From Austropuccinia psidii (lineage: Eukaryota > Basidiomycota > Pucciniomycetes > Pucciniales > Sphaerophragmiaceae), in NCBI GenBank assembly GCA_023105745.1, contig JALGQZ010000003.1:78032696-78096695 (forward strand): 64,000 nucleotides of DNA, in the 5' to 3' direction. Positions 1 to 55,697 of the stretch are shown one piece after another. Every line of letters begins with the position of its first letter. Within the stretch, counting starts at the first letter, position 1. Both the position numbers and the translations under genes were made by a program. Below the pieces are notes generated by a model. The model ran no database searches and was not told the DNA's origin. It was given only the letters and a program-made list of their open reading frames with translations.

Positions 1-45
1 ATCAGTTAACACATCAAAACATTAATGAAGACTGGTGATACTCAC

Positions 46-24607: not shown

Positions 24608-24858
24608 AAGCAAACGTCAAGCAGGATAAAAGTCGAGCTCACGTCAAGCAAAAATCAAGCGAACGTTGAGCACACGTCCTACTCTTGTCTTACACCAAAT
24701 CCTGTGACATCCACCAATATTGGTTCCCCTGTGCCTTCAACTCAGATTCCGTACCACCTGATCATCCCGCAACCGTCCGATGGTTGGTGAAAATTACACA
24801 AGACCCGCCTGTTTGCACAAACACACATCAAAGAGGTCCTTCAGCCAGTCTTGATGTA
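24608..24858. other. Left subterminal unique segment with CGTCAAGC short repeats
   Basis: At 24601-24680 CACGTCAAGC, ACGTCAAGC and AAATCAAGCG repeat at short intervals. The rest matches copy A at 5377-5600 inverted. No gene is supported. Confidence 0.55.
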
Positions 24859-25570
24859 GGCGGGGGGTTTGACTTCACCAGGTCATCCATAAAAGGACTC
24901 CGCCTGAGCAGGATTGTCGTTTTGCAGGTGACACTGGTAGGGCCCGCTGCACAATACCGCATGTGCGGGTGTGGGTGCGTGTGCATTGGCATGTGCAGGT
25001 GCGCTTGCGTGTGCATTGGCGTGTGCGGGTGCGCTTGTGTGTGCATTGGCGCGTGCGGTGTGCGGGTGCGCAAGGGTCGCTTCCCCTTCCTACATGATGA
25101 TGGCGCAGCTAGAAATTTTGGCGGGGGGTTTGACTTCACCAGGTTGTCCATGAAAGGACTCCGCCTGAGCGGGATTGTCGTTTTGCAGGTGACACTGGTA
25201 GAGCCCGCCGCACAATACCGCGTGTGTGGGTGCGGGTGCATTGGCGTGTGCGGGTGCGCTTGCGTGTGCATTGGCATGTGCGGTGTGCGGGTGCGCAAGG
25301 GTCGCTTCCCCTTCCTACATGATGATGGCGCAGCTAGAAATTTTGGCGGGGGGTTTGACTTCACCAGGTCGTCCATGAAAGGACTCCCCCTGAGCGGGAT
25401 TGTCGTTTTGCAGGTGACACTGGTAGAGCCCGCTGCACAATACCGCGTGTGTGGGTGCGGGTGCGCTTGCGTGTGCATTGGCGTGTGCGGGTGCGCTTGC
25501 GTGTGCATTGGCGGGTGCGCAAGGGCCGCTTCCCCTTCCAACATGATGATGACGCAGTTAGAAATTTTGG
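24859..25570. repeat. Left subterminal compound minisatellite, copy B
   Basis: A higher-order unit starting GGCGGGGGGTTTGACTTCAC begins at 24859, 25120 and 25345. Inside each unit are runs of GTGTGCATTGGCGTGTGCGG-type short repeats. Copy A has only one higher-order unit with a longer simple array. ORFs spanning it on both strands are artefacts of the repeat. Confidence 0.85.
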
Positions 25571-25778
25571 ATGCTGTGAAAGGTGAGTGTGTGGGTCATT
25601 TGATCATTGAACTTGGCTTATTCACACTGTACCCAATGTCAAAATAGTAAGTTCTTTGTGGCAATGTGAAAGAATGGGCTTTGCTTGTCACAATGGCATG
25701 TCTCTGTCACTAAATTTTGAGGCAGTTATTTCACTAGCAAAATTGCTAATGAATCTGAGATATTTGCATTTCTGTAGA

Positions 25779-28700
25779 CTAAATTTCATGAAATAACGGC
25801 TTTATCATTACAAGAAATCCACATGACAGAACTTTGTTATCATACAATCCACAGTTACCTTCTATTTCTTCTTCAGATATAATCAAGTGTCCATCATCAA
25901 GACCAATAGCTTTGTAAATATTGAGATGCGGCCAATCTGGTAAGAAATTCACATCAATCTTCAAAGTTTTTAAGATCAGAAAGTTATTGTTCAGTATGCT
26001 AGATGGCTCAGAGACTTTAAAAATGCTATTAATAATACCAAATTGTCGTGAGTTGCCCCTCAGAAAAGATATCACACTGTTGCTGACATTTTTGGATTCA
26101 GTTGAAAATATATTGTTCCCAATATTAATGTTTGAAACTGGAAAATACCAAGGTGAGACAATCCTTGAAGTGAGATGACTTGTGGATTGCACGGTAGTGT
26201 CTAAGCTGATCCAATCAACTATTTCCCTTGTTGCATGAAAATTCTGTAAGTACGCAACCAGGCAATCATAATTTTCTTGGTCATGGCGGGATGGTTTGTT
26301 ATATTTATGGTCATTGAACAGGGCAGGTGGCTGTGATTCGAAAAGCTGTTTTATTTCACATGGCACGGATGGGGATTTCAGGAGAACGGAAAGGTTGGAA
26401 CATCGACAGATATGTTGAAGTAAGGTTTTATCTATATCATCTATTTAGAGTTGCAAGAAGTTAATCTTATTAAGTTCAGGTGTTTAATCAATGTGAATAT
26501 ATTGATCTTATTAATTGACGTACATATTTTGTTATTTGTTGGCATTTTTGCAAATACTCCAATCAAGCGCTCATAACCCCATGTGGCTGAGGCTTGTGCT
26601 GGGCCCCAACGTTGGAAGAGTTCGGGAATATGGTCAGCAAAATGATGATTTGGTTTACTTTTCTGTTTTGGGAACAGGAGTTGATTGGAAAGGCGGAATT
26701 TTTTCCAATGTTCAGCAAATGCAGTCGCATCTCCTATTGAAACAGTCCAACTTGTGGCAATGTTGATAGCACTAATCAAATGGAATTTATTCTTGGTTAG
26801 TTCATTTCCAAGTTCTTCTGACTGACCCATTTGCCTTTGAATGTTGGCGGATTGGTGTACATCTAATGACATCTGTTGACTGAGCATTAAAAATGGAATA
26901 TAGACCTTATATAAGAGAGCCCATTCAGTGGCTTTTAAGCTACCATGAGAGGGGGAACCCATGTTGCGAGGTACTCTTGTCCATGATGAGGGAATTATTG
27001 TCTCAGATATGATTTGTCGGAGATGCTCCAGAGCCTCACCCTTGATCTGGTGATCACTCAGTGCAGTGATATCCAATTCAGAGGGGATTTCAGAAGTGGG
27101 GATGTAATCGGCATCAAATGAAGGAATCTCCGCAGAACCACTAGATGGATGTTCTGTGTTAGGGGTGGGCATTGGGAAGTAGTTTTTTTGGGTGGAAGTA
27201 GTGGGGAGTGGCTCATTTATTATTTTTGCTGCGTCTCTTCTCAGGGAGCGGGCCTCTCTCAATGTGATTTTATCAAGAGAGCTGTTGGAGGTCATGGAAT
27301 CTGAGTCTGAACTGTTGGTGTCATTGGATTTCCTGCGGGACCTGAGGTAAATTTTTGATTTGGACTCTGGAATGCACAATTTGAAAGTTGCATGATCCTT
27401 CAAAATTCCAAGTATTAAATTATGCATTATGTCAAGATTAACCATTCTGGTGGCATCCCAATACGGAAGGTCTTCTAAAATTGAATATCACACTCCATAC
27501 TCAGAGAAAATTTCTTGTCTTTGTTGTGGGGTTGCCCGAAGCCATTTGGCAATGGTTGATTTATGATTTTGATATGAGCGTGTGTAGTGAAATTGAGGAC
27601 CAATTTCATCAATTTGAGCTTTGTGAATGGTGCAAAAATTACAAAAGTGGTTGCCTGAATGGGAAATAAATCCAGTAAGCTTGCGCATGGCAACCACATC
27701 CGCAATGGCTGTGAGAATGGCAACACGGATAAAGGATCCTGAAGGACCTGTTGAGGTGGGTGAAAAATGGTAACCTTGCCATAGCTCTTTGAGCTCGTTG
27801 ATGAGTGGCATTAATAAATAATTCAATTGAAGGGAAGTTGGCTCCTTTGGACCAGGGATGATTCCTGCAACATAGACATTCTCTGGCTTCATTCTTTCAC
27901 TTGGGGGGAGATTAAGACAAATAAGCATGATAGGTCCAATGCTGGCCAACCGGGTGGACTTTCCATGTGCATTAAACCAGTCCACATAAATGGAGAAGGC
28001 CAATGCACCAGGAATGGACATGAATGGGGGGTCATGGATATTTCTAGTGCCAGTGAAGCGTCTCCAGACCAATCCATCCCAGACGTCACATTTTGGGGAA
28101 TCTTCGGGAGTTTGGGATTGTTGATGTTGATGCAGAATGTCCATAATTCCAGCCCGCTGGAGAAATCTGGCAAGCCAATTTTTGAATTGTTGATAAATGA
28201 AATGTTTTGTTGGTATAAATTTTTGCTTCATGTTGGTGGTGTTTTGGGTGTGGGCTTCAAATGAATAGATGAATTTGCCTAATGATTGTGTGCAAGGGGG
28301 ATCATGATCATTTGGGTCATTATGGCGTTGACAGTGGGGTTGGTCAGTTGTGACTGATTCAGTAACGCCATTAAGAGAGAAACATTGAGGACAACATATA
28401 TAGTTTTGAATCACTGGCTCCAATTGGAGATGTTCAAATATGGTACTCAGATCTTGAGGTATATGGAATGCAGGAATGGGGGGACCACCGGAGCTTGAGA
28501 TGCTGGACTTGATCAGCAGGTTTAGGGCGGGGTTGAGAATGCGTGAAGCCCGGCGGGGTATATGATACCTTAATGATAGAATGGCAGATATTATCATTCC
28601 AAGGTCTTGTGGAGGAAGGGTTTGACTGCTGCTGTATGGTTTCTGTGCAGTTGAATTGAGAACCGCTGGAGTTGAGAAAGTGCTTTGGGTCAAACGTGAA

Positions 28701-28939
28701 TAATCAGCTGGGAAGATTTGATCCAATAGAATTTGTGGGCACCCAGATCCTGATGCAGAAGTAGGGATGTTTGGAAGAGATTTGGGTGCAATGGTTGATT
28801 TGAGCTTTTTAATGTGCTGTTTATATTGGAAAGGTGTGAAGGCAACTCCAGGCCTATCACCCTCAGGGGAAGAGTGTGTTTGAGCTGAGCAGTGTTGACA
28901 CATGCATATACGCATTGAGGAATAGCGGCGGGTTGTCAT
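25779..28939 (-). pseudogene. Tnp2-like (Plavaka-type) CACTA transposase, copy B, one nonsense codon
   Basis: Exon 1 (28939-26524) and exon 2 (26440-25779) join across a GTACGT...ATAG intron to give 1025 codons with a single in-frame TGA at 27488-27490; copy A has CGA there. Features are an N-terminal CMCQHC, CCPQC near residue 180, the Transposase_21-like region (VDWFNAHGK, IIPGPKEP) around 320-370, likely catalytic Asp in AIADVV (about 414), Asp in LDIMHN (about 503) and Glu in WGYER (about 790), and the zinc-like CNFC. Assignment to Tnp2/Transposase_21 rests on these motifs and is supported by the CACC ends and 3-bp duplication. Otherwise the frame is intact, so it is a recently inactivated gene. 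Confidence 0.88.
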
Positions 28940-29890: not shown

Positions 29891-31951
29891 ATGTCATCTT
29901 CCAAGTCACATCAATCCCGTTCAGGTTCTGTTCATGACTCAGATAGTGAATCTAGCATAGAATATGTTCAAACACAATCACCATTGAGTCCCAACATTCC
30001 TCTCACAACCCCTATCGCATCCTCAATGAATGTATCAGGTCTTAACATTGATGTGGGAAATCCGAAGGCTCCAACTTCCAGCACTTGGGTGATCCCAAAT
30101 ATTTCTGTCACTCCAACTCCCCCGAACCCCACTAATACACAAATGCATGTGTCTGAGGGGCCGGAAGGCACACCTCAAATCTCATCAAACGCTAATCCCC
30201 AATCAAAATTTCCATGTGAGTTCCTCCTTAACCCCAGTCGGAATCCAGTCGCATCCCAGGATCCCTTTGGACGAAGTCAACAGCCAACCCTCAATATTCC
30301 ATCAGGATCTCAGGCTCATGTGGGAAATGAAAGGCGCGTTGATGGCGGGCGATGAAAAAGACCTTTGGAAAATGTAACTTGGAGCGGTCTGTCGGAGGGA
30401 AATCCAGGATTGACGCTTCATCAAAGTAAGTCATTTGAATTTTGGAGTATAACATTTGTCACAATTTGATATTTTTGTTTCATGGGTTAGATATGGCACC
30501 TAAAGGCAAGTCAGTCCGATCTCAGGAGCCAATTGAAGATTGTGAGGATGACCAGTCTTCATTAATGTTTTGATGTGTTAACTGATTATTTGCATGGCAG
30601 GGGATGAACTTTATGCGTCTTCACCTCTGGTCCATAAAGAGAAAGTCACTGGACGTCATCATCCATATGCCTCCAAACCAAGAACGGGTCATGCCAGTTC
30701 ATCAAGAGAAAGAATTGTGGATGATGAGGATGCGAACATGTCTCTGACTCAAAGTGAAAGAAATGATGAACCAAGGAGGGACGATTTCACGGCGCATGAG
30801 CAAGGCACTCAATCAAATAGTGAGTTCACCCATCCTCAGCTGGGCCTTGCCCAGAGTATGCTTGAACAATCCGAGGTCAGACAGCAAAGGAACCAGGCCC
30901 GCAAAGCTCACAATGTGGCGAAACGTGCAAGCCAGAAGGAGCAACAAAAATGGCTGAAGGCAGAACTTCCAGAGAATGTCCATGGAATGAAATCAGCAGT
31001 ACAGGCACATTGCCTGTTCCTACTCAAAGTTAGGGATAAGGATTTTTCCTCACTACCAGCACCACCCAGCATAGAAGAGTGTGAAATTGCAATTCAAGTG
31101 GCTGGTCATCTCGGATATGTCCCCGAGGATGTTTTCAATGAGCCATCAACACAGGTTCAGTCTCAGGGTTTCCAAAGCTACTGCGAAAATGAGCTCCACA
31201 AGCTAGGACTAAAGCGGTTCACTTGGGACTGGGAGAGCTCATGGCAACATCCGTTCAATGAGCTGATGTCTATGGTGTTTTACCGTACATTCCGTCTTGC
31301 ACTGGTCAGCACTGAGTATCATCATTACTGTTGGAACAAGGATCATAATAACCATGGGGTCGTGGCGGCTTTAATGGAGCGATATTTCACTTATTTGAAA
31401 AGAGAATGGAAGTCTATTCAAAAGGATGCCGAGTATTTGGTTAAAAAGAAGGAGAATCAAAAGCTTGCGAAGATTTGTCAAAGGGTTAGTTAATGTATCT
31501 CTTCTTCATTGTGAGCAAAGACTGATGATGATCTACTTCATTATGTACAGACCTGTGAGCGCCGTCGTGAATGGTGTGATACGGCTAATTTTCCCATTCT
31601 AGCATCACAATTCAATGACCCTCGAGTATGTTCAGATACTGAGGAGGTACTGGAAAATGGCCATCAAGTTTACCGCAAAGTGGGATTAGGCTGGCGCTCC
31701 CAGTTATTTAATGAATTGGTATTAAAAATTGATCGAGACATAGAGTTTTGTAATCGCATTAAAAAAAGGGTAAAAAAACTATTGATAGATTGCCAGAATT
31801 ACGATTGACAGATGATGGTGATATTCCGGAAGGCTTATCATTTCAGGTATTTGATCAAGATTGGCTCAAAGGCTGTAGTAAGATGCAGACTAGCGCCCTC
31901 AAAATACTTGACATGCCAGTTATTAGGCCGAATGGTGATGCTCTGCAATAG
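29891..31951 (+). pseudogene. Partner gene of the transposase, copy B (all exons, broken)
   Basis: Exons are 29891-30425, 30491-30541, 30601-31484 and 31551-31951. Introns are GT-AG except that the second donor is degraded (GTGAGG; copy A has GTGAGT). The N-terminus is Ser/Pro-rich. The middle has a basic stretch (KAHNVAKRASQKEQQKW) and an aromatic-rich segment (WDWESSWQHPFNE). The C-terminus contains RLPELRLTDDG, a kind of ending I associate with second proteins of basidiomycete Tnp2 elements. Breaks are a TGA at 30353-30355 (CGA in copy A) and a frameshift in the A-runs at 31761-31778. The function is not known. Confidence 0.7.
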
Positions 31952-32329: not shown

Positions 32330-34672
32330 TCAGAATAGTAATACAATCAAGTGAAAGATGAGCTTGAAAGGTACCTTCAGCATGTTGACCTCAACTGAAT
32401 GAGGAGTGATATAGTGGATGACCTGTACAGGTCGTTGTTGGCCAATACAATGTAGACGATCAACAGCCTGAGCCTCAATGGCTGGGTTCCAATTGGGCTC
32501 CTGGAAATGTGGATGTCAGGGTCCGAAAATCAGGGGAGAATTTTGGGGGGAAACTCACCATTAAATAGACTATATTAGCACAAGTTATATTGAGGCCAGT
32601 TCCAGCCGCGGCAATGGATGCAATGAGTACTTCACATTCAGGATTATTGAAGAAATTCTCAAGCGCCTTGTCCTGCGCTCGTGGTGTATTTGTTCCATCA
32701 ATTTGTGCTGAAAGGATAGAGTGATGGGCAAGAGCAATCCCAATTCTACAATATAAAAAAGTCAGATGGAGTCAATTGGTAATGGATGCATATTAGAATT
32801 AACGCACAAATCTAGAAATTGGGTCCATTGGGTATAAACAACCGATTTGGTTGGACCACACCTTGTTTGTTTGTTCTTCATTAAGCTTTGTAGGAGGTGT
32901 GAAATTTTACTACTCATCATGCATGTTTCCACATCCACAATAGTTCGTGTGATTGTTGGCAAGTTATCCTGAGTGCTCCTGCCCTCGGGGTCTTCCAACT
33001 CCGCCTCTGCAATTGTGTTAAGCATGATGTGATGGTTACAACATATTCGCAGCTTATTAATATTTCTGAAAAAATCTTCTGGTCCTTTGCTTTTGGATGA
33101 TAGGAATTCTTCATATAATGTGGAATATTCTTGCTGCATGGTCGGGTTGAGTGGGAGCAGCTCATAAAGATGGCTAATAGTGGGGAGGGATTCGAGATGT
33201 GTGGTTTTGGTGCGGCGGAAACTTAAATGCCGCAATGCCAAATGCAAAACATCATTGCAACCTTTCGAAAGACTACTCAGGATGAATGGTGACCAGTTAT
33301 CTTGATCGGCGCACTGTGGTTGAGTGATGAATGATATTATGCCCAAAAGGTCATAAATGGTGTTGTGAATAGGTGTGCCCATTAAGCATATTCGACGGGA
33401 TGAAAGGAGGCTATTAATGGCACGGTGAGTGGCAGTGTATTGAGAGCAAATATAGCTATAAGAGGGGGCAAGGGTTATTGGATATAAAAGGTAATTTGAA
33501 TCATTTAAGACCAGAGACTCACTGTGCTTCATCCAAAATTATACAATGCCAATTGATTTGAAAAATTAATGATGTAGAGGTATTGGTTTGCTTAAAATCT
33601 TGGGTGATAGTATTGTAAGAAGTGATGATGATATCATATTTTAAGATGTCGTCTTTGGATGATGAGTGACGAGTGGGACCATGGTAGATTTTGGAATGCA
33701 GCGCTCCAGCCTGAGCATTCTTGGATATTTCTGATTGCCAGTTGGTAATTAAGCGAGGGGGACAGATGATCATGGTGGGCGTGGAGCGATGGGGGTTTGC
33801 AATCATCCGCTCCTTGGAGGTACCAATTAGAGCAATGGCCTGAATGGTTTTACCTAATCCCATATCATCCGCGAGCAGTCCTCCAAGAGGGGTATTGGTC
33901 GAAAGGGTTTCAAATGAGCTAACGACCTTGTTTGTAATGATGTGCCTGGCATTGAAAGTGGATCCTGGGGGTGAGGTGGCCCAAAGGTTACGGGCTGATT
34001 GGCCATTGGGGATTTCTCGATCCCAGAGAAACGCTAGTCCGGTCTTTTGATGAGGGAGGAGGGGGGTTTGAATAATGGCATGGGGAGGTCTGATCCACTG
34101 GGTAATTGTATCAGTTCTTGCTTGGAAATCAATGATGAAACAGCAGGATATGAAGCAGGCGTCGAGTTTGAAGCGGGAAATGTCGGAGTAAAGAGTTGAC
34201 ATTGACAATGAGTAGTACAGTCATATTCTTTGGGCATTTTAAGCTTGAAATCTTGTGTTCGAAAGCTTTCCATTATGAACAAAATGTTTGGATACCATGT
34301 GAAGAACATCAATGTTAGATTGGGTTTCTGAGATGAGGAGGGATCATTTGCATCAGTCATAAATACTCCCTCAACAAATAATATTTGAGTAGGATTGGTT
34401 TGGCAATTTTCAATCCATGCCCCACCAGGACCACAGTGCATGAACGTTTTTGGTGCCCCAAGGAATGGTATCAACGTTTGGGAAAGGGTTCCCGGGAGAG
34501 AGCCAATAGAATGCTGGTGATTGGGGAGATATACAAATATGTTGTGTTGATTGTGCCATAGGATAATCCAAGAACCTAAGTGGGAATTCTCAGGCTTTAA
34601 GGTTATATCACTATTTATTTGAATACGAATATTAATCATCCCAATGCAAAGTGGTTGTGAAGGGGTTGACAT
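32330..34672 (-). pseudogene. SNF2-family helicase-like ATPase, decayed
   Basis: From the ATG at 34672, an N-terminal region of about 200 residues precedes the ATPase. Visible motifs are LLPHQKTGLAF, motif I LADDMGLGKT, motif II DEAH (formed across the 33456-33522 intron), motif III LMGTP, RICCNHH, and, after introns 32746-32807 and 32501-32558, motif V AAAGTGLN and motif VI QAVDRLHCIGQ. The canonical HRIGQ arginine is Cys here (TGT), fitting CGT to TGT decay. The N-terminal and ATPase frames disagree around 34034-34208, so an indel or missed intron lies there. No RING finger is seen. Such ATPases remodel chromatin or translocate on DNA in the nucleus. Placement inside the transposon makes it cargo or an accessory protein. 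Confidence 0.82.
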
Positions 34673-36397
34673 GATGGCTATGTTAAATTATTTGGGGACA
34701 GTTGGAAATTATATGATTGGGAAGGGTTAGCTAAAGGGAATGAAGAGGAATAAGCGTAGGTGGGGAACTTATATGAGTGGCAGCAACAGGCCAAAAGGGG
34801 GATGACCTGTGGTTACGTGCATGGTCTTGATGGGGGTGGGCGTCTTGGGCTGACAATTTTCATATCCAATTTGGGGCATATATCAAGGCAAGGTGGCCAA
34901 AATATGGGTGCACCGATATTTTGCTGGATCTGCAGCAAGGTACAAAACCTTTGGTGGAACAAGGTTGACATTAGCATATCCAAAATTGGGTGGGTTGGAG
35001 CAAGTTATTGTGGAGGGCATATCAGAGGCATGCAGTCATGTTCGCTGGTGTGACAGCGAACAATGAGCGTATCATCCCCAGGTTAATTTTCGCACAGGGA
35101 CCTACTGGGCAATGTTGGCGGTTTCAAAGGGCAAACTCACTGTAGAGATGTGTGTGTGTGGGCGGGTAAGATATGTTCGGTGGCACGCCACCAAACATGA
35201 CTTTGGTTTTGCGTGAAGTTTTTTGATGACTGATTCCAACTAGGCTTCAGGGGGGGAAATGTGGCATGATCAAACGGGGCACCGACCGTGAGGCATGATC
35301 CACATCTACATTCACCCCTATTGCGTTTGAGGAGGCTACTATTCCCCAGAGATTGGGATCACGGTCTTTGCCTCACGCGTGAACAAAACTCCGGAGAAAG
35401 AGGCCACCCACCCAAGGGAATTTCTGGCTGCAAGCCAGGTGCCACAACTTGGGCGGGGCATGTGAGAACGTGAAGAAAATAACCCGTGGTGGGAGATACC
35501 CACGCAAACATAACCAGCCTCAGCAATCATAGGCTGGGATTATTCTGATGTGGATGAGGCTGATGCAAATCCACACTGATTGGCCTCAGGTTTCCACGCG
35601 CGAGCAGGTGAGCGTCTGCAGTCAAGCTGACCACCCGACCAAGAAACTAGCCGGTCGGAACACTGGCAGTAAAATGTCTTCGAGGCGTGTGAAAGTTGCC
35701 TGTGTATGACCTGTTGGGGGGTGCGTATGAAAGCGTGTGGCTGCCCAACAATGAGCACGCGCAATGAACAAGCAGGGCCAGTCATTGTTGGCCCTGACAA
35801 TGGCACCGGAGTGAATCCACTGTTTGTGTATTACCCAAATAATAAGTCATCCCATTATGACTCACTTTCATTAACTCGGATTACACCCGCGTCTATGCCA
35901 TTGTTAGGCAGAGCTCTGCAAAAAGGTGCACCAAAGGGATGCAGTTGAGATATATGACTCAATGGCTTGACGTGATTTTCATGTTACATTGCTGAACAGC
36001 TTTTGCTCTGCCCCGCAGCATACATTTACACAGGTGTACTGCGTACTACAGTGTTGGCTGTACAGATCAGGAAGGTGTTATACTACTTGAGCCTGCATGC
36101 ATATAGCGAATGTGCATGCACCTTCCGATCGTTGGCATATACGTAGCTCATGTGCCACATGCTCAGCATTGCGTTTCACCCGATTTGCACACGCAAGCTG
36201 AGAATATCATGGTCAAAAGCACCGTGTGAAAGTGCTCAGTAAAGCCATGGAATGAACTATTTTTGCAATAGTTCATTGGAAGGCTCAGTTTGGAGCACTT
36301 CACCAAAGCGTGTGAAATGTTGCAGCTGGCTGAAATGTCACCCAATGCTGTGCCAAATGCTCAGATTGTGGGAATACAAAAACGACTGAGCAATGGC
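34673..36397. other. Intergenic DNA inside the giant transposon, no supported gene
   Basis: About 1.7 kb upstream of the SNF2 gene. Short ORFs on both strands lack motifs and repeats of coding type. A palindrome of family P lies at 35173-35198. GCTCAGCA/TGAGCA-type short motifs accumulate from about 36150. Confidence 0.5.
35173..35198. promoter_or_regulatory. 26-bp palindrome (family P, member 3)
   Basis: ATGTTCGGTGGCA pairs with CGCCACCAAACAT with few mismatches. It lies about 500 bp upstream of the SNF2 start codon. Confidence 0.65.
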
Positions 36398-37108
36398 TCA
36401 GCATGGTGCATTTGATATTTTTATATCAATAGTTCAATCACTGTGCCATTAAAATGTTCAGCCACTGAGCATTTCAATTATGACCCGAAAGCAAACCTGA
36501 GCAACGGGTTGAGGCAAGCTCACGCTGTATTCACTTGTGTTACAGCCCCCCCTTTGTTCACATACTATTACCAGGCCATACAGCTGGTAATATTGCCGCG
36601 GTCACTTGTGACCAAATGCACCGGGTGCATTTCTGCATGGGTCACTTGTGCATTCCACCCACAATGCACATTCAACAAGGGCCTCACGACCACCCTCCCG
36701 GGTGATCGGGTGGCTATTTAAGGAAAGAAAGGGGATTTGACTCAGCTTCACAATTTAATAAATTGCAATACTCAGCGGTGCATTTGATATTGTTATATCA
36801 ATTGTTCAATTACTGTGCAATTCAAATGCTCAGCCACTGAGCATTTCAATTATGACCCAAAAGCAAACCTGAGCAATGGGTCGAGGCAAGATCACGCTGT
36901 ATTCACTTGTCTTACAGCCCCCCCCTTTGTTCAAAGACTATCACCAGGCCATAAGGCCGGTGATCTTGCCGCGGTCACTTGTGCATTGCACCCACAATGC
37001 ACAATCAATAAGGGCCTCACGACCACCCTCCTGGGTGATCGGGTGGCAATTTAAGGAAACAAAGGGGATTTTACTCAGCTTGACAATTCAATAAATTGCA
37101 ATACTCAG
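36398..37108. repeat. Tandem duplication, two units of ~340-375 bp
   Basis: Unit 1 (about 36398-36773) and unit 2 (about 36770-37108) both start GGTGCATTTGATAT and end CAATACTCAGC. The first has an extra stretch near 36605-36640. Small ORFs in each unit arise from the duplication and are not called. It lies 0.6 kb upstream of the gene at 37690. Confidence 0.8.
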
Positions 37109-37689
37109 CCAGACCCCCATTGTTCACCTGCCTCACGCGAGCATTTCACTTCTCAGTTGCAGCATTCGCTGAGACTCAGCTTCAATTTTGCCCACACGCC
37201 TTGAAGCTGAGACTTTTGCGGGTGCTGCAACTGCTGAGATCGTCTCAGCTTCACCATGGTATAAAAGACCATCTTCAAACGACACACACTTCACTTTCTT
37301 TCTCACCCGCTCCACTTCGTTCAACCTCACCCGCGTTTGTCCTTCTTGTGCATATTCCCCTTCGTCTTCCTGCCTTTCTATTTTTGTCTTTCGCACTCCA
37401 CTCAACTCACTTCCCTTCCTTTTGCCTGTTTGTTTATTCTTCTGATGCGTTCAGAACCTCACTTCTATCCACCTCGTGCGTTACCTCTTTTTTAAACTTT
37501 TGTCGACATTACATACCGATATTAATACTTATTTTTCTTCACAACTCTTTTCCAGACTTTTAAAACCTTCGGACTAGAGCGATCTTATTTTGTTTCCAAT
37601 TTAAATTTATAATTCATCGTACGTCTTCATTTTTTCTCTTGATTGTTTACTTTGTATGCAGTTACTAACCTCAATTGTTTTGTTTTTAG
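37109..37689. promoter_or_regulatory. Upstream region of the Cys-cluster gene
   Basis: Pyrimidine-rich sequence (about 37290-37480) precedes the ATG at 37690, as is common for fungal leaders. A possible 5' untranslated intron ends TTTTTAG just before the ATG. ORFs on both strands are not supported. Confidence 0.4.
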
Positions 37690-39041
37690 ATGTCGTGCAC
37701 TTTATGCACCAAGCGGGGTATCCCCTGCATTTGCTCCTCGACGACAAACAACGCTTGTGATGCTTGCCGACAAGCACACAAGAAATGTTTGTTTGTTGTC
37801 CTCCCCTTCCGACCACGAGGCCAGAGGAGTTCCCGCCCAAGAGGCCCTTGCGAGGACTCCTTTGTGGTCGACGATGATGAAACCATTTCCGAGCGTGAAT
37901 GGACGCCGGGCCCCCAACAGGCCAACGGGAACGATTCCGGACGATCAGCCCTGTCCCCTCAAGTATCGATTTGTCCACTCCCCCTCCTAGGCCACCATCC
38001 GATGGTCACTTCACTCCTTGACTGGAGCGAAGTGATTATCCGGCCGATGAAGGATGGCGATGGCGAGAGGACATTCAAACTTGGGCTGATCGTCACCATG
38101 TCTTGTCACCAATGGGATTCAAACGCCAAAGTAAGTTTTCTTTCTCCTCCTTATCTCATTTCTCTTCACGCAATAATACTGACTTTTTTCCATTTCTCAT
38201 AGAACAAAACCCCCCGAATCCCCCCCGACAAGACTCTCCCGTGCCTAGTTTGCCTCGCGAGCAAACCCCCCGGCAACCCACTCCAGGCCCAAGTGGCACC
38301 CGATGGTCTGAGGAATTATTCCGCGGTAAGCAGCCAAAGTTTCATTTCATTTTCACTTTCACTTTTGAGTCGAGTGAACTGACTCTTACTCCTTTTCTAG
38401 AACCCTCCCAAACGGAAGAGCCACCTATTCCTGGCCCGAGTCCAACGTCCCAACAACCTGAGGACAATACGACTCGTGAGCCAGAACCCGATGTGGCTCC
38501 TACGCAATCCACGGAGGAAGCTTATGGTAAGTCACCCCTTCTTTCTCTCTTCGATCCATATACCCTTTTCCTCATTTTTTCTTCGACCGTCTCCAGATCG
38601 TCCCGCCACTCCTCGCTCGATCATCATCATTGACGATACGCCCGTCGGATCCCCCCTCCCCCTTCTTCTTACCCGACTCGCCCACCTTCCCCTTCCATTC
38701 CCCCCCCCTCCCCAGAGATCCCTTCCAGTGCCCCTGAGAACCCCAACGCCTTTTCCCCCCCGGTGCCAAGCTCCTCTCATTCCCACGATGAAGCTCTCCA
38801 GGAATTCACCGACCTGCGACCGACCCTAATGATTCCTCGAGCCATCGTCCACGATTCGATCAACCGAATCTTGTTGGAGCATCGTTGCTTGCTCCACATG
38901 ATTCCTTTCGTGGATGCAACTCATCAAAACGAGATGCACCGGGAATTCCGGGATGAGCTAAACTGCCTCCTTGCCCAGGCACTGGAGGCTTATCCAAAGG
39001 AGGACATAACCGGGATAGTCTCCAAATTCCTTGAAAAATAA
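37690..39041 (+). pseudogene. Multi-exon gene with N-terminal Cys cluster and Pro-rich middle, probably broken
   Basis: The N-terminus has a regular Cys pattern (CTLC, C-I-C, CDAC, KKC within residues 3-33) like a small zinc cluster. Introns with GTAAG donors and AG acceptors lie at 38131-38202, about 38326-38400 and about 38528-38596. The exons are Pro/Ser/Thr-rich (GPSGTRWSEELF, PIPGPSP). The last exon (to TAA at 39039-39041) is acidic and helical and ends SKFLEK. The frame that best links exon 1 to exon 2 has a TGA at 38019-38021 and needs a shift upstream, so the gene is probably damaged. The Cys layout recalls Zn2Cys6-like or gag-type fingers. The function is unknown; DNA binding for the element is a possibility. 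Confidence 0.5.
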
Positions 39042-39464
39042 AAAATTAAAAAAAATAATCTCATTATTTCCACTTTTTATCATTTGTAATACTTTCTTTT
39101 AAATGAATTATTTGTATTCAATTATTATTATGTTTAATTTCTATTACATTCTTTGTTCACGTAAAAATTATTTATTTCCTCCTTAGAGAAAAACCCTGAT
39201 TGCGTGAGAATTATTTTTGTAAGTGCCCCACCAAGCGTTTGAGTGAGTATTTGTTTTCGTGAACCTCTTTTTTTCAAAATGCGCCAATAGTTGCCGTTAT
39301 CCTCTCCTATATTTTCTTCTTCCATGGTTTAGAGCCATATCCATTCTTAACTGTAAAAAAGCGGGAGGTTCCCGTATGTGAGCAATCCAGTCCAGATTCG
39401 TGAAACATGGCCTTTCCTATGGCCACACGCTATTAATATTACTCATGTATTGAATTGTTTAAAT
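39042..39464. other. AT-rich spacer, no gene
   Basis: AT-rich DNA downstream of the Cys-cluster gene. Nothing recognisable. Confidence 0.5.
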
Positions 39465-39904
39465 TGTCTGGAACCTTCACAAGCGTAAGGATTGGCGTGT
39501 GACTTGTCTGGAGCCTGCACAGGCGTAAGGATTGGCGTGTCAATTGTTAGGAGCCTGCACAGGCGTAAGGATTGGCGTGTGAATTCTTGGGAGCCTGCAC
39601 AGGTGTAAGAATTGGCGTGCGAATTGTTGGGAGCCTCCAAAGGCGTAAGAATTGGCGTGTGAATTCTCGGGATCCTGCACAGGCCAAGAAAATTTCAGCA
39701 TTGTGGGGAACCCTCACAAGCGTAAGGATTGACGTGTGAATCGTCAAAAGCCTGTACAGGTTCAAGGAATTTTTAGCATTTTTTGGAAACTTCACAAGCG
39801 TAAGGATTGGCGTGTGAGCTGTCGGGAACCTGCAAAGGCGTAAGGATTGGCGTGTGAAGCGTCGGCAGCCCGCATAGGCGTAAGGAACTTTTTGCGTGTG
39901 AAGC
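39465..39904. repeat. Internal minisatellite, ~40-bp unit, about 11 units
   Basis: Units have the form GGAGCCTGCACAGGCGTAAGG followed by ATTGGCGTGTGAATTGT, with some degenerate or shortened units. The first half-core GCGTAAGGAT recurs in the right subterminal array (44770-45290). The second, ATTGGCGTGTG, recurs in the left one (24859-25570). Confidence 0.88.
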
Positions 39905-39940
39905 ATTCGCATCCTGGACAATAGCAACAAACCAGGACAG

Positions 39941-39966
39941 ATGTACAATGGCATGCCACCGTACAT
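39941..39966. promoter_or_regulatory. 26-bp palindrome (family P, member 4)
   Basis: ATGTACAATGGCA with CATGCCACCGTACAT; arms pair almost fully. It lies 125 bp beyond the stop codon of the TET/JBP-like gene (minus strand). Confidence 0.7.
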
Positions 39967-40090
39967 AATCCACTTCACCCCTTTTTCATGTGAGACACCC
40001 CATCTCCCGCACTCGAATCCATCCAATCCTGGTGTATATTGTCCTCTGCCTTACCCCACCATTACTTACCCAACACACATGCAAATCTCC

Positions 40091-41419
40091 TCATTCTTTG
40101 AATTGGCATGAGATTGTATTACCATCCCTGATTTGATAGCCCGCTCTCTTGCCAATCTCATAATAGCCATGGTTTTTTTGCCGCATTGTTTTTGCTAACC
40201 TGCTTGAGCATTGTGCGGACATACCCACTAGTGTCGTGCTTTTGTTATCCTGTGCTGGATCAGTATAATGAACAAATGTACTACTGGCCCACACTACCTG
40301 AATGAGCCCATGACATGCGGATAGATCAATCCAAAAATGCTCATTTGGGAAAATCAATTTTCCCCCTGTACACCGCTTTGACGCATCTCTTTGAATTTGG
40401 CCGGTCCGCTTATCAGCTTGAAACCACCATCCCGAAGCATACTGCGATGCATCCTTATCAACATGAGGTGCGTTTTTGAATCCATTCATGGTGAAAGTGA
40501 GTGCGGAAGCGAACTCAAATGCACCCTGATTTGCCGGAATATTGCCTTCATAGTTGACTTGATCAAAAGACGGAACCCCCAATGAATTGTAGGAATTTTG
40601 AATCTTCTCAAATAAATTATCCCCAACATATCGTAAGGATTGACCTAGAATGCGACCCACCGAGCTAAGATTGGCACCTCGGTTCCGCCATTCATCTTTT
40701 GCATTTTCAATTTTGCCAGCACTTCCATACAGACCAAATTGTTCATTCTTCGTGGTGCATTTGTGCCACCCAATCGCGAACATAAATCCCTCCAGTAATG
40801 CTCCATTGGTTGCAATAGGGTCAGTGAACCTCTTTTTGCGAAATAGGAATTGTGATAATTCATCCCATTGATTGACCTCGACTTCACTCATTGTTGTGAA
40901 TGGTTGGAATTCAACAAGGGCAATGAGTAATCCGGTTGAAGAGAAAATTGCCACACGGCCCAGGTGAATGCGTTTGATCTGATTGACATCCACAACCCTC
41001 CGAATTTCACTTGGGGTGATATTTGCTGATACTGGCATTGATATTTGTGCTGTTGGGCGAGAGGAGGAAAACAACCTATTCATTTGGGTTGTTTTGCGCT
41101 CATTTGTCTTTTGGGATCTGCTACTATTCTCGAGTGGTTGAGGGATCACTATGTGTTGAAGCACACAAGATATCAGATACTGCCAAGGAGCTTTCTTCGG
41201 CACACATCCTTTGACTTCCCTGTTGGAGCCCACATGACATTGGCACAATCTGAACCGACTAAAGCCAATGTTCTTCCGTGGGGCCCAATGAGGGTGCCAC
41301 ATAAATGTGGAAGCATATATACACTGAGATTAAGCGAGTAACTCACACTTTCCTTCCTCAGCCCGACGCTTTCTCGCGAGTTCCCTTTTACGCTCTTTTC
41401 CTTTTTTGGTGAATGGCAT
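40091..41419 (-). CDS. TET/JBP-like 2-oxoglutarate/Fe(II) dioxygenase
   Basis: An open frame runs from about 41302 to the stop at 40091. A short basic first exon (41419-about 41347, MPFTKKGKERKRELARKRR) can be joined across an intron (about 41220-41346); two splice choices keep the frame. The C-terminal half has the metal-binding HxD in NAPHVDKDA, the following WWF and GGKLIFPN strands, a distal His in FVHYTD about 63 residues later, and a downstream Arg (SSRLAK) suited to 2-oxoglutarate. This layout is that of the fungal TET-like 2OG-Fe(II) oxygenases, which in characterised relatives oxidise 5-methylcytosine or thymine in DNA. The basic N-terminus suggests a nuclear protein. No stop or frameshift is seen, unlike other genes in the element. 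The substrate is inferred only. Confidence 0.75.
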
Positions 41420-41995
41420 GCTTGCAGCAGAAATTGAAATGAAACCAAATGATTACTGATTTCTTAATATCACCTAAATTGGATTGCGGTGGATGAATCT
41501 TTTTTAATTGCGGTAAAAAGAAAGCTCACACCTGACCTTGGCAAATTCACGATCTCAAATACCTGAACCTGAAAATTGCAGTGGATAGTGCATTATTCAA
41601 TTTTACACATTGATGTTCCCATGCAATCACTTTCCAATCCGACCATTTGGAATCTTGCAAGCACATGCAAATGCAATTTGCATCCTGCTGCGGATCCCTA
41701 GCTATCCTAGTCCTCTTGAAAGACACAGGAACATTTGCCCTATTATGGGCTGGCGGGAAGTGATAAACACGACTTCCCGCAATGCACCCGCGTGTGCTAC
41801 TCGCGGGCACATCGCCTGACTCAGCTTTTGTCTTGTCGGAGTCTTTGCAATGATGTACGGAGGCATGCCGCCGTACAATTACTATTGGTACTCAGACTGT
41901 GGCATCCGGGCAGTAGTAGGATAGGAAGTCATGATTATTAAATTCATAAATAACTTTGCAAAATTCAATTACAATCTATCTAGTACAAAGCTAAT
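41420..41995. other. Spacer between two tandem minus-strand genes
   Basis: Presumed promoter of the TET/JBP-like gene and 3' end of the upstream gene. It contains the palindrome at 41854-41877. No supported ORF. Confidence 0.5.
41854..41877. promoter_or_regulatory. 24-bp palindrome (family P, member 5)
   Basis: TGTACGGAGGCA with TGCCGCCGTACA; near-perfect symmetry. It lies 119 bp beyond the stop codon of the gene at 41996-44234 and about 435 bp upstream of the dioxygenase start. Confidence 0.72.
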
Positions 41996-44234
41996 CTAAA
42001 ACGGGTCAATCCTGGTTGTGAGTTTAGCTGACCTGGGTACCGTCAAGGTGACCTCATCACTTGAACCAAGACCGCGTTTTGCCACCCAGGCATCACCAAA
42101 GTCTAATACTAAGCATCGTGCAAATTCAAATCTAAGAGGTACAGTGGGGTTGAAAGACTCTGATGAGAAGAAACTTTTATTCAGTAAATTACATATATAC
42201 TTATTAGTACGTAGCCACACTGGCTCCACTAGATTTTTACCCTCTGAAAGTTTTGCGGAAATGTCAATTAGTGATAAAGCCCCTTTAACTGAGCTTGTTC
42301 TCCAGTCATCTGAGCATACCATCAAACCACAAACCCCCGCCGCACAGAATGCCGCTAATATACCATAGCAAATTCGATTTATTCCGAGATTCTTGTGACA
42401 CGCCAAAAGATCTTTGATGGCCTCATTTTTTTTGAGTTCGTGAGTTTGCCTTTGATGCCATTAACTTCGACCTTTGTATGTGCACGTACCATGTTGTACG
42501 CAATCATCAAATGGATAACTGTATCCATTAGATCCTCCAGGTTCTGTGCGGCTTTTTGGATATCTCATTGTCAGCCCCGCCACCTTCAATGCTGAGTTGG
42601 GTTGCACGTTGCTTTGATTTACTCAAGCAGGAGGCCAGGTATTCAACTGCTCCGCGTTCGAGTCCAAGAGGATCGGTCGAATTTGATGTTGGTGCAACAT
42701 ATGGTTTGGGTGCAATCACATCGTATGAGACTAAACTAATGGATTCAAACATAACATTTGCCCAAAAATGTTTAACTGGATTGGCGGGGTAAAGAAGGCT
42801 CTGAACCATTTTGAAGAAGGAGTGTTCTGATTTTGGGAGATTATCTGGACGTTTAGCTGATTCCTTCATCAATTTGAGATTCCAAATGTTGTGATCAAAA
42901 AACCCTTCTGTTTTGGTTGGCTTAAAAAAATCTAACCCTGTATATTTCAATTTATATCACCAGTCAACAGCCAATAATCAAGTATCATGCACAAAGATAA
43001 AAAAAAACTCATCTGCCATCTCAAGGTCCTCCAGCCAAGCCGACATTTTAAGCTCTTGGTTACTGATCACCTTAATACCAATGGGCAGGAATGTATGAGC
43101 ATCCTTTGTTGGTAAATTGTCCCATCTATTTTTGTAAATCCTATTGATATTATCAAGCCCCCTTTTCCATGATTGTTGAGAAATATTGGAATGATAATTC
43201 AAACTGCCTGCAAACTCTTCCATGCGGGATAAAAATATTCCTTGAAAATTCGCAGCGGATGACACTTCGGACCCAGCATCGGGAATTATATCAGTCATAT
43301 CTCGTCCCATTGTATCATGTTTAATTGTTTCGCTTGGTTGAAAGGCTTGAATATTCTGAGGAGAGGCAGGAGGGGTTGCATCATGCATTGTTTCATTGGG
43401 TATCGGGGGGCTTTCAGTATGTGGAGCTTGATCATGGATTGTTTCATTGAGTATGGGGGGGGTTCAGTATGCGGAGGTTCATTATCAATATGGTCCACTT
43501 CAACATTGATCATTTCATCACCTTGATCCCGGGAATCCTTTGCGGCTTCAAAGGTACGGCGTTTTTTGTTGGTTTTTTTGGTCGCATGTATATTTGGTCT
43601 TTTTCCTAATCCTTTGCCTGGAAATCCAATTACGACTCGAGATGCTTCAGGTAGAGATTCTCCCACCTCCACACCTGCCCATATATTGTAAGCAGGTATT
43701 TTTATTAATTTTGTTTTGATTTAGTAATGGACTTACGGTTCAAATCCATTTTGAGCAGGCTCATGGCTTCAGCAATCTTTTGACGCACATAATCAGGAAT
43801 TTTACTATCATTTTGAATTTTTTCGAGCCTTGGGATTGTTTGAGCAATGTTGGAGACAAATTGTTCCTTGGATATAATTTCCACCTCCCCACTGAAAATT
43901 ACATCATCTTGCCCATCATCTTCTGTCGGTGCACAAGGTTCAACAGTCTTTTCCTTCTCATAACTTTTAAAATTCGGTTTCTGAGAGCTTGGAGGCTGAC
44001 CTGAAATAAAGGCTATGACACAATGTCAGGTTTGGGGAGATTAGAAATATTCAAGATGGATGCATACTCACATTCTGGAAGAACTGGGGGATCTTGATTA
44101 TCTTCATGTGACTGGCTCTCTACTTCAATGCCTAATTCACGACTACTGGCAATATCAGAGATTTCACTTCCACTCTCTGGGGCTGAAGTTGGTCGTTCAT
44201 TAAATTCAGTTGAATTTCCCGGGGTTCGGGCCAT
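41996..44234 (-). pseudogene. Large multi-exon gene of unknown function
   Basis: Exons begin at the ATG at 44234 (to 44072), then 44000-43737 and from 43674 onwards. They are joined in frame through GTGAGT and GTAAGT introns. Later coding continues through KHDTMGRDMTDI, KYTGLDFFKP and HLMIAYNMVRAHTK to the stop at 41996. The protein would be about 650 residues, acidic at the start, with a nuclear-like basic patch (ATKKTNKKRRTF), and largely alpha-helical later. Three frame breaks fall on homopolymers: the G8 run at 43455-43462, the A5 run near 42555 and the A8 run near 42424-42433. I recognise no domain. It lies upstream of the dioxygenase in the same orientation and may be co-regulated. Confidence 0.55.
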
Positions 44235-44769
44235 GGCGGAGGTAGTTTATTAAGCAAATAGATGGTGACGAGGTGATTGATAACTTGTTTGAAAATTTTT
44301 GAATAAAAAGATCCAAATTGAAGAAAAAAGGTGCAAGTAAAATAATTGCATTTGCAAAATGCAATTTGTCGGGAAATTAAAGGAGGCAATGTTTTGCAAA
44401 TTATTTCATATCATGCAAATGAAATCACTTCCCTGTGAGACATTGAATAAAGTTGACTAGTGAGAAACCTACTAAAGTCAACTTTTGAACTATTCAACAC
44501 TCATGAGGTAAGGACTAAGCAAAGTGTTCATTTGATTGATATGAAATAAAATGGTTTTGTCGGGGAAACAGGAGACACAATTATTGTCTTAAATAGTCCA
44601 CTTATTAGGTTTTAATTTGTGAGTCTCATGATTTAAACCCTAACCACAACATTGTGAATATACTGACCAATTTCCCCTTAGGTCCTGTTGGCAGAGAAGG
44701 CCACTCAGCATATTTCGGGGATTGCCTTCATCGTGTATGCCAACAAGACACCGTACACTATGGATGTAG
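44235..44769. other. Spacer at the right side of the giant transposon
   Basis: Non-coding. AAGTTGACTAGTGAG...CTAAAGTCAACTT (about 44450-44485) can form a hairpin. Otherwise nothing recognisable. Confidence 0.45.
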
Positions 44770-45290
44770 TACGGAAGCGTAAGGATATGTCGTGTCGGGA
44801 GTATGTTGAGAGGCACTCCGCGAGCGTAAGGATAGGTGGTTTCGGGAGCATGTCGGGAGGGCACCACACAAGCGTAAGGATAAGTGGTGTCGGGAGGGCA
44901 CTACACAAGCGTGAGTATAAGTGGTGTCAGGAGCATGTCGGGAGAGCACTCCGCAAGCGTAAGGATGGTAAGCAGTGTCGGGAGTGCACTACACAAGCGT
45001 AAGGATAAGCAGTGTTGGGAGCATGTCGGGAGGGCACTACACAAGCGTAAGGATAAGCAGTGTCGGGAGCATGTCGGGAGGGCACTTGAGCGAGCGTAAG
45101 GATAAGTGATGTCGGGAGCATGTCGGGAGTGCACTCCGCGAGCGTAATGATCGTAAGCAGTGTCGGGAGCATATCGGGAGGGCACTTGAGCGAGCGTAAG
45201 GATAAGTGATGTCGGGAGCATGTCGGGAGTGCACCATGTGAGCATAAAGATGGTATGGGCGGGGGTGTGAAAGCGTAAGGAGTGGTAAGG
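44770..45290. repeat. Right subterminal minisatellite
   Basis: About ten irregular units of 40-55 bp, built from GTGTCGGGAGCATGTCGGGAG, GGCACTACACAA and GCGTAAGGATAAG. Long ORFs on both strands here are repeat artefacts. The position, 0.3 kb from the transposon end, mirrors the left array. Confidence 0.85.
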
Positions 45291-45576
45291 ACGGAGATGG
45301 GGGGGCAGTGTCGGAGTCTCATCTGGAGGGTGGTGCGGGCTCTTAAGCATGCGAAGCATCGGGGAGGATTAGGTGGGGATGCGGAAGCCAATGAGGTGAA
45401 ATTACCCGAACATTGTGAATAGTGTTGAAATGGGTTTGGGCTTTGAGTGACATTCGCATGTGACACATGTGACGATTGACGTTGTCTTGACGCTGACGTG
45501 ACATGACCCACTAAATCCAGTGACTATAAAGTGACACTAACGCGACTGAAGCAAGATTTTATACTGACAGCGGTGC
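45291..45576. other. Right subterminal unique segment with TGACG-type short motifs
   Basis: ATTGACGTT, CTTGACGCTGACGTGACATGAC and related motifs occur at 45470-45530, close to the terminal repeat. They are similar in kind to the CGTCAAGC motifs at the left end. Confidence 0.5.
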
Positions 45577-45622
45577 GACGTGAAGTCAATCGCCGACGAT
45601 TGACGCAAGATTCGCCCTGGTG
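45577..45622. repeat. Right terminal inverted repeat of the giant transposon
   Basis: Read inwards it starts CACCAGGGCGAATCTTGCG. It matches the left repeat over 46 bp with three differences, and TTT follows at 45623-45625. Confidence 0.92.
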
Positions 45623-45866
45623 TTTGCTGCGGACCCAGGGTGACCAAGGGGCCCAGAATTGGCCCAAACCAAACTTCACCATATATGGCCTGGACCAATT
45701 GATGGGGTCCAGGACCATCAAGATCCTGGCCTCCCCAAAGTTGAAGGGGAGGCCCTGGGTGATGAGTTCAGCCCCAAAGGGGTATGAATCTTCACCTTAG
45801 AGGCTTTGAGGGGGGGCATAATTGAGTTATGGCCTCCATTTCCTTGAGGTCAAAAAGTTTGTTGAT
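45623..45866 (-). other. Element 1 3' region of copy II, resumed after the giant transposon
   Basis: Matches the reverse complement of about 20597-20844 in copy I. It contains the presumed promoter of the antisense gene. Confidence 0.8.
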
Positions 45867-47630: not shown

Positions 47631-48378
47631 TTTGCCTTTTCCTTGTTTTTGTTTGGTTTGACTTCTATCCCCAATCTTATAAATACTAAAAAAAGAAAAA
47701 AATAATGGAACCTCCCAATACATGATTTGGGAGGGGATGCTGCTGCTTTGAAGAAATAAAAGAAAGAATATTATACAAGTAAAGAAAGAAAGAAAAGAAA
47801 AGAATAAGAGAAAATGAGAGTAAAGAGTAGAAATAAAGAAAAAATCCTGATGGCTGGTCCTCCTTGTGGTGAGTTGCTTGATTCTGGCCAAGAATTGTCT
47901 GAAAAATGAAAACCAAGCATTTGATGCTCACAGAGTGGCGAAGGTAATGTTTTACAAGAAGTAGAACCCTCAGTGATGCATACCAGGAGATGGAACTTAC
48001 TTTCATAACTTCCACTCCCCACCAAGCACCATAAAACTGAAATAAATTGCCATAAATGACTTCTGAAATGAATTGCCATGAGTGACTTCAAGTAATGAAG
48101 GTCTTGAATTATGATGATTGGCATAAATGAAATGATAAATAAGAGAAAAGAAAAGAAAATAAAGAGAGAAACATTTGGCCATATCTTGATAAGGTCCAAA
48201 TCGGAGGGTATTGGTGTTGTATGCTTCTGGGACCTGTCCAAAGAATTGACAAGTGCTCACAAAGTGGCCAAGGTGATGCTTACAACAACATTTGGGTAGA
48301 ATACCCCCTTAAAGGTGCATGCCAGGAGAGGAACTTACTTTCATAACTTCTTCCCCCCACCAAGCACCATAATCAAAC
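47631..48378 (-). other. Spacer between antisense gene and pol of copy II
   Basis: Reverse complement of 16628-17375 of copy I, including the repeated GGTGCTTGGTGGGGAG-type stretch. It ends with CAAAC (48374-48378), the target duplication of element 2. Confidence 0.75.
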
Positions 48379-49816
48379 TGTCTGGCTGAGTCTATATTGA
48401 AGTAGTAATAAGAGTATTTACAACTAGAATTATGACTGTGACACGTAGAAAATTGATTTATAATAAGAGTTTTTGATTTAAAAGATGATTTATAATGTAA
48501 TTAAGGGGTTCTACTATTGGAAAATAGTGGTGGTGAGCGCTATTGAGAACCCAGGGTGCAATCTTACCAGTTGGGTTACTATAATAAGAGTTACAATAAT
48601 TAAATATATAATTATACCTGTTTATTACCCAAGAGTAAAACTGTTTTTGACAGTTTACTACGTAGGGTATTCAAGAGCAGGATGAGGAAAGGGTTTTGGC
48701 AGTGAAAAGCCCTCCTTTTATCCTGAAATTGAGGTGAAAAGGTTGTTAGACCTTTTCACGTAGAGGAAGTGAAGATTTTTCACTCCTCATGACAGGCTCG
48801 TGGTTTGAAAACAGCCTGTATACCCTCTATTGGGCTCAGATGTGGTTTTGAAACCACATCTGGGCAGTTTCCACCAATACAGGGTGAAAATTTTCATCTG
48901 GGGACCTCACAGCCTGATTCTGACGTGTATGACGCGTAGAATGCTGTACAGAAACTGTATGGGACCCCAGTATTGACTGACATATGAGGTATTGAAGTAA
49001 AAACATGCTTCTTTGTCTATTTGACACCTCATATTCATGGTTATAGGGTATTATCCCATGGTAAGGCTGTATATGACAGCAGGTGGGATTTTTACCTTAA
49101 AATTGTCATACCTCTTTCAGTTTTTGAGATATCAAGCTCAAAGTTGGTTCATTGAATAGCCCTGTATGAGCTCTATACAATGGTACCCAACTTGACAAGG
49201 TTATCCTTAAATATGGCAAAGTTATCCCATGTACAAGTGTTTTTATACATTGGCGTGTTTTGGGCAAAAGCTGTATTAAGCTTGTTTGGCCAATAACTTC
49301 TGTTCTAGTTGAGATATGAGGAAATGGATGACACCATCAGATAGCCCTGATTGTGCTCTTTCCAAAAAGACCCCACTTTAAGTATCTCACACTAAAACTG
49401 TAAAAGTTAGATGAGAGGTGAATGTTTTGTTCACCCTTATTTGGTCTGCATTTGACCATAACTCAAGTAATACTGCTGCTAGCTCAGTTTGGCTAGTACC
49501 ATTGGATAGCCCTAGCTCAGAGCTTCATTTTGAATACCCATTTGATGGGGTTAAGCCTCTCCTTCTAGATTTTAGATGAGAGGTGAAAATTAAGGTTTAT
49601 GCTCAGCAATAACTTTGAGTAGGAATAACTTTGTTATTTCTTGTCCTATGGTGATGGGACTTATATTTTCAGGAAGAGGTGAGTTTCCTCTTTCTTTTGA
49701 TACCTTTTGAGCTAATTTGGCTCAGCTCCATGTTTTGGTGGTATTTTGGCTATACCATTGGTTTATGGTATTTTGGCTGTCATGCTTGTGCTCTGGTTTT
49801 GAGTCACAGGCTGACA
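48379..49816 (-). repeat. Element 2 3' LTR
   Basis: 1438 bp, TGTCTGGCTGAG...GAGTCACAGGCTGACA on plus, nearly identical to the 5' LTR at 56639-58076. ORFs in it are not genes. Confidence 0.95.
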
Positions 49817-49836
49817 TACCCTCCCTCTAAAAAAGG
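49817..49836 (-). other. Polypurine tract of element 2
   Basis: On minus it reads CCTTTTTTAGAGGGAGGGTA, directly before the 3' LTR. The same tract precedes the LTR fragment at 8050. It primes plus-strand DNA synthesis in LTR elements. Confidence 0.75.
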
Positions 49837-49840
49837 CTCA

Positions 49841-55696: not shown

Positions 55697-55697
55697 A

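Follow-up and report, generated by a model that had tools for sequence, protein, structure and literature searches.

An EnSpm/CACTA transposon of the rust fungus Austropuccinia psidii carrying a TET/JBP-like oxygenase gene and a damaged SNF2 gene

A stretch of 64,000 nucleotides from the rust fungus Austropuccinia psidii (contig JALGQZ010000003.1 of assembly GCA_023105745.1, positions 78,032,696 to 78,096,695; hereafter the window) contains a copy of an EnSpm/CACTA multi-gene DNA transposon in which genes for a transposase, a TET/JBP-like oxygenase and an SNF2 ATPase are found. Comparison of the window with itself placed the whole element at 24562–45622 (21,061 bp). A repeat that is unbroken at 20070–22290 recurs with its two halves at 46393–45623 and 24561–23165, which identifies the sequence between these halves as an insertion. 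The 46-bp terminal inverted repeats (24562–24607, plus strand, starting with CACC, and 45577–45622, minus strand) differ at 3 positions, rising to 12 when the comparison is extended to 60 bp. The termini read CACCA..TGGTG (CACC..GGTG) and are of the CAC..GTG type; at both of them CACCA was found in place of the strict CACTA pentamer. A target-site duplication, TTT, flanks the element (24559–24561 and 45623–45625), and the corresponding empty site lies at 20842–20844 in the paralogous repeat. CpG-rich subterminal tandem repeats occupy 24859–25570 on the left and 44772–45255 on the right. An initial annotation of this DNA had placed the oxygenase and SNF2 genes in one bounded CACTA-type element. 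The inverted ends, the TTT duplication and the empty site bear this out, with the limits given above in place of 32330–44234, a span that leaves out the transposase gene (25782–28939).

A second, inverted copy of the element (copy B), cut by the start of the window, was found at 1–5707. It is 94.8% identical to the complete insertion (copy A) over 1–5144 and is followed by unrelated sequence past the shared terminus. Copy B halts at exactly the same terminus, which fixes the left end of the element a second time. The minus-strand transposase at 25782–28939 is of the tnp2 type (PF02992, E = 4e-16, above cut-off), which assigns the element to EnSpm/CACTA and not to KDZ (Kyakuja-Dileera-Zisupton). 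Membership of KDZ was rejected on these grounds and on the length of the duplication, 3 bp here versus 8 bp in the Dileera example of Kojima 2025 (PMC12730594). Plavaka membership was likewise rejected, as the match to PF18759 (E = 0.042, 13.5 bits) fell below the cut-off of 26.3 and the ends differ from TGT..ACA or CATCA..TGATG.

Here and below, a gene is called broken as it reads in this assembly. The transposase frame of copy A is interrupted near 27.49 kb by a stop that is absent at that spot in copy B, the frame of which carries two stops at other places; a frame change near 26.44 kb is common to both copies. With its transposase frame interrupted, copy A is probably unable to act alone. 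The ratio of non-synonymous to synonymous substitution rates (dN/dS) between the two copies was 0.30 (827 codons, 39 synonymous and 43 non-synonymous changes), which suggests selection in the lineage preceding the present lesions.

The oxygenase is encoded on the minus strand by an open frame of 403 residues (40091–41302). The match to Pfam PF20515 (2OG-FeII_Oxy_6, Tet-like) was strong, with E = 1.7e-46 and 159 bits where the cut-off is 27, and places the frame inside the 2-oxoglutarate (2OG)-Fe(II) dioxygenases. All three metal ligands are present, H280 and D282 forming the HxD motif and H345 the distal histidine, and no lesion was seen in the reading frame. As read by eye, the ATG at 41419, the start given in the initial annotation, may begin a short basic first exon. 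The enzyme had been annotated as having an intact HxD..H..R set, and this held for the HxD motif, the distal histidine and the open frame. The arginine was not found where expected: at what we take to be the spacing of the 2OG-binding arginine after the distal histidine in TET, T356 and T357 are found instead. The nearest well conserved arginine is R368, 23 residues past H345 and kept in 75 of 85 letters. The legend of Figure 7 in Kojima 2025 (PMC12730594), where the rust enzymes are named PU type, gives H, D/E and H as conserved among three types, in agreement with the ligands seen here.

The SNF2 gene lies about 5.4 kb away within the same element as a separate gene on the minus strand (main exons 32375–34672, defined by GT-AG borders and homology). 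Its match to PF00176 falls into two parts (E = 2.1e-30 and 1e-11). Motif I reads DDMGLGKT, motif II reads DEAH after removal of a GT-AG intron, and motifs III and V are present. Of the five motifs first annotated (I, II, III, V and VI), only motif VI departs from expectation, reading DRLHCIGQ versus DRAYRLGQ in a Puccinia triticina relative; other A. psidii SNF2 models that reach this motif run into intron-like sequence there. The frame is also broken. The A. psidii gene model P0121 aligns to the gene in four blocks at 80–85% identity, and the window changes frame between the first and the second block while P0121 itself is continuous, which puts a frame break at about 34.07–34.09 kb, caused by mutation or assembly error. 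The best match of P0121 in the Protein Data Bank (PDB) was RAD5 (E = 5e-32), and the gene appears Rad5-like on this basis. No chain named DNMT5 occurred in the best 60 of its 76 PDB matches, and an origin of the gene from DNMT5 was not supported.

Homologue searches took in only proteins of 0.55–1.75 times the query length, so that the counts obtained for SNF2 (12 A. psidii models among those listed), the oxygenase (208) and a plus-strand open reading frame of the element (317) are not comparable with one another. This plus-strand frame, a second element gene of high copy number (29891–31948), shows a break in frame near 31.77 kb when compared with A. psidii models. For both the oxygenase and the plus-strand frame, counted at E ≤ 0.001, the best 120 homologues were all from A. 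psidii. The SNF2 search, in which only the 7993 candidates with most shared words were scored, passed 3240 proteins; its best 120 were led by the 12 A. psidii models at 65–83% identity, after which came proteins of P. graminis (37%) and P. triticina (31%). In total 252 A. psidii proteins (120 oxygenase, 12 SNF2 and 120 plus-strand frame) were compared with the window. Element context was found beside the oxygenase in 12 of its 120 models. Seven of these translate a minisatellite (39.4–40 kb), two include the gene upstream, two the stretch at 41.5–41.8 kb, and one, P0018, begins with the transposase N-terminus. Right-end sequence of the element was carried by one of the 120 plus-strand models (P0290).

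The remaining features of the element are less readily assigned. The oxygenase gene is followed immediately downstream by the minisatellite (39412–39914, unit of about 40 bp). On its upstream side lies a multi-exon gene of the minus strand (42000–44234), which is fused to the oxygenase in P0081 and P0108; none of the frames tested from this gene reached the cut-off of a Pfam model. At 37690–39038 there are plus-strand open frames, Cys-rich at the N-terminus, and two that were tested had no Pfam match. They sit in a CpG-rich stretch (observed/expected ratio, o/e, 0.79 at 36.3–39.1 kb), are preceded by a tandem duplication at 36.4–37.1 kb, and may be cargo of the element or an insertion nested inside it. 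The window as a whole is crowded with transposons, and also holds an inverted pair of about 1.9 kb (12954–14870 and 17485–19402, 95.5% identical).

Transposable elements (TEs) of A. psidii are described as hypermethylated at CpG sites, which deamination has depleted (PMC12774611, PMC8063080). The present element stands out from its surroundings in this respect, with a CpG o/e of 0.61 versus 0.14 in the left flank (5908–24561) and 0.10 in the right flank. In 1-kb bins the ratio ran from 0.31 to 0.89 in copy A, 0.28 to 0.96 in copy B and 0.00 to 0.33 in the flanks, so that the ranges share a narrow margin. Few parts of the element are as rich in CpG as the subterminal repeats (0.88 at 24562–25600 and 1.06 at 44700–45622). 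To the right lies a Gypsy-like element (48374–58076, a label given by eye and not by profile) with 98.7% identical long terminal repeats (LTRs) and 25 CpG in 9,703 bp. Its open frame of 1,272 codons (51899–55714, minus strand) has zero CpG: all 75 arginine codons are AGA or AGG, and none of 300 serine, proline, threonine and alanine codons ends in CG. This element has inserted recently, judged by its LTRs, yet is nearly CpG-free; a young age is thus not sufficient for high CpG.

We favor a reading in which the element encodes an oxygenase that counters silencing by host 5-methylcytosine (5mC), perhaps helped by SNF2, and assign it a probability of about one half. The host would methylate CpGs of the element, including those of the 46-bp ends and the CpG-rich subterminal repeats. 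The oxygenase would oxidize this 5mC, which would then be diluted or repaired away, leaving the ends and promoter usable. Whole copies of the SNF2 ATPase may open nucleosomal DNA to the oxygenase or the transposase. The oxygenase of copy A, its frame being open, could act in trans. Counted for this reading are the position of the oxygenase within a bounded element and the 12 of 120 models with element context, the transposase dN/dS of 0.30, the joint retention of the metal ligands in 83 of 107 models, the reported hypermethylation of A. psidii TEs, the CpG o/e of 0.61 versus 0.14 and 0.10, the near absence of CpG from the recent Gypsy-like neighbor, and the variation among the three sequenced element ends. 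All four variable positions in these ends are CpG transitions; such a change is possible at 20 of 46 positions, which puts the chance of this outcome, counted by position, at about 0.036.

Evidence on gene linkage, on the oxygenase and on CpG retention also weighs against this reading. The SNF2 gene is damaged here, and a link to TET in other copies of the element did not emerge: none of the 252 compared models contained SNF2 together with the oxygenase, and no adjacent SNF2 and oxygenase locus tags were seen among the matches listed. The closest tag pairs (MF-1) were O181_026215/026219 (plus-strand frame and SNF2) and O181_024241/024242 (oxygenase P0018 and plus-strand frame), near the level of chance. 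The former pair, with tags four apart and both genes on 10,839-bp contigs, is the sole indication that elements of this kind include SNF2; by our own arithmetic about 0.1 pairs of its kind are expected by chance. Contigs of equal size were discarded as proof of linkage, since the tags of a 1,639-bp pair are 104 apart and those of a 1,854-bp pair are 8 apart, more than a contig of that size could hold. One of the 12 SNF2 models, P0132, carries element-end sequence. It was dropped as a link between SNF2 and the element because the sequence reads inward across an end, which fits a nested insertion better.

For the oxygenase, 107 of the 120 models cover all three metal ligands, and 24 of these lack at least one. 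Random triples of columns were jointly intact in a mean of 58 of the 107 models, and 6.7% of triples reached at least 83, the value for the ligand triad. Singly, the ligand columns ranked at conservation percentiles of 0.80, 0.55 and 0.37 among 210 columns. Taken one by one, the ligands thus appear no better conserved than an average column in the A. psidii models, which at most weakly support constraint on the triad; conservation of catalytic residues was dropped as a proof of selection. Many oxygenase copies look like decaying relics, as for any transposon. These data bear on the possibility that the oxygenase, and SNF2 with it, are passengers that were captured once, copied with the element and left to decay with no role in its life cycle. 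Damage to the SNF2, transposase and plus-strand genes of copy A fits such a course, as does the passive transfer between superfamilies described by Kojima 2025 (PMC12730594). It is harder to square with an oxygenase frame that is open where three other genes are broken, and with a triad jointly intact more often than most random triples. Dead copies of any active element decay, and many decaying copies are therefore expected whether the oxygenase is a passenger or counters methylation. We consider the passenger explanation rather unlikely.

Predicted oxygenase structures were too poor to use (mean pLDDT, the predicted local distance difference test score, 42.9 with a 91-sequence alignment and 38.7 with 62 sequences). 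A sequence search of the PDB found no TET relative, the single protein giving one chance match (E = 1.3) and the alignment none. To our knowledge no activity has been reported for this PU-type enzyme. The oxygenase might also write a product (5-hydroxymethylcytosine, 5-formylcytosine, 5-carboxylcytosine or a glyceryl adduct) that alters reader binding or marks the ends, rather than erasing 5mC. Kojima 2025 (PMC12730594) leaves the activity open and counts CMD1, which places a glyceryl group onto 5mC, as one of the solved structures nearest to the PU type. No such product is known, and we regard this alternative as improbable.

The CpG contrast admits an explanation from history only, that is, from the age of the source family, its methylation level or its base composition, with no protection by the oxygenase. 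Younger TE families are reported to be richer in CpG (PMC12774611). Retention is uneven within the element, where bins go down to 0.31 as flank bins go up to 0.33 and the transposase reaches only 0.37. The step is sharp on the left, where the first kilobase outside the element has a ratio of 0.09, and less so on the right, where it has 0.27. The comparison was moreover made with flanking repeats, and not with a TET-less DNA transposon of equal and known age. Set against a purely historical origin are the Gypsy-like neighbor, recent yet nearly CpG-free, and the identity between copies A and B (94.6–94.8%), which bounds the insertion ages from above only. We consider history alone quite possible, with a chance a little short of even.

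The differences between the two copies bear on the same point. Transitions that make or break a CpG were found at 55 of 1352 positions versus 89 of 4307 others, a ratio of 1.97 (p = 1e-4). By the same measure, three further pairs of repeats within the window gave ratios of 1.65, 0.76 and 0.89, none significant. The GpC control between copies A and B was also raised, at 41 of 1202 versus 103 of 4457 (ratio about 1.5), and CpG transitions therefore stand only slightly above it, as a historical origin would have it. A strong methylation footprint was rejected, because the balanced count with this control leaves a modest excess. That the CpGs of the element mutate like methylated CpGs is only suggestive. 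A broader interpretation is that the window displays two opposite answers to CpG methylation, a DNA transposon that keeps its CpGs and would itself encode an eraser of 5mC (and perhaps a chromatin opener too), and a Gypsy-like element that has purged CpG from its 1,272-codon frame. We offer this tentatively and think it unlikely to hold as a whole. If it were general, the way in which any given transposon family avoids silencing in this very large rust genome could be predicted from its CpG content and cargo.

An oxygenase inside an EnSpm element and the idea of counter-methylation are already in print. Kojima 2025 (PMC12730594) reports TET-bearing EnSpm elements from several rusts, A. psidii among them, that have CAC..GTG termini and make 3-bp duplications; the paper proposes escape from methylation and states that the function of transposon-borne TET is not experimentally validated. 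SNF2 has 0 occurrences in the main text of that paper, the part to which this count applies, and going by titles and abstract openings no publication was found that describes SNF2 in such elements. In the portions of PMC13297926 drawn on here, SNF2 in DNMT5 and transposon TET genes are treated separately. The anatomy of one complete insertion, the SNF2 gene with its damage and the CpG contrast with neighboring repeats appear to be what is added here. With these, the observation of the initial annotation is partly confirmed and its interpretation partly supported; its suggestion of counter-methylation is a reasonable hypothesis, and the same as that published. The element bears on the question of whether transposon-borne TET genes shield their carriers from methylation. 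The CpG step at its borders and the CpG-free neighbor give countable predictions that can be checked on existing A. psidii methylation data. Should whole copies prove to carry SNF2 along with TET, this would suggest that erasure of methylation in chromatin needs an accessory motor.

Among known systems, the closest are the TET-bearing EnSpm elements of rusts, with which the element shares a listed host, the superfamily, CAC..GTG ends, a 3-bp duplication and a Tet-like oxygenase that has both the HxD motif and the distal histidine; it differs in having an SNF2 gene, which the main text of Kojima 2025 does not name. KDZ elements likewise carry TET/JBP genes, but with a transposase of another superfamily and an 8-bp (Dileera) rather than a 3-bp duplication, and the comparison with KDZ first drawn for this locus does not hold given its tnp2 transposase (PF02992). 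In kinetoplastid JBP2, TET/JBP and SNF2 activities are joined in one fused protein. Both activities are found together here too, but as two separate genes, with the SNF2 gene broken and closest to Rad5 through P0121, so that the analogy with JBP2 initially proposed is weak. The TnpA protein of maize Spm is encoded by a CACTA element and relieves promoter methylation. TnpA is a DNA-binding protein and not an oxygenase, but it shares with the present element the superfamily and the principle, proposed here, of element-encoded counter-methylation.

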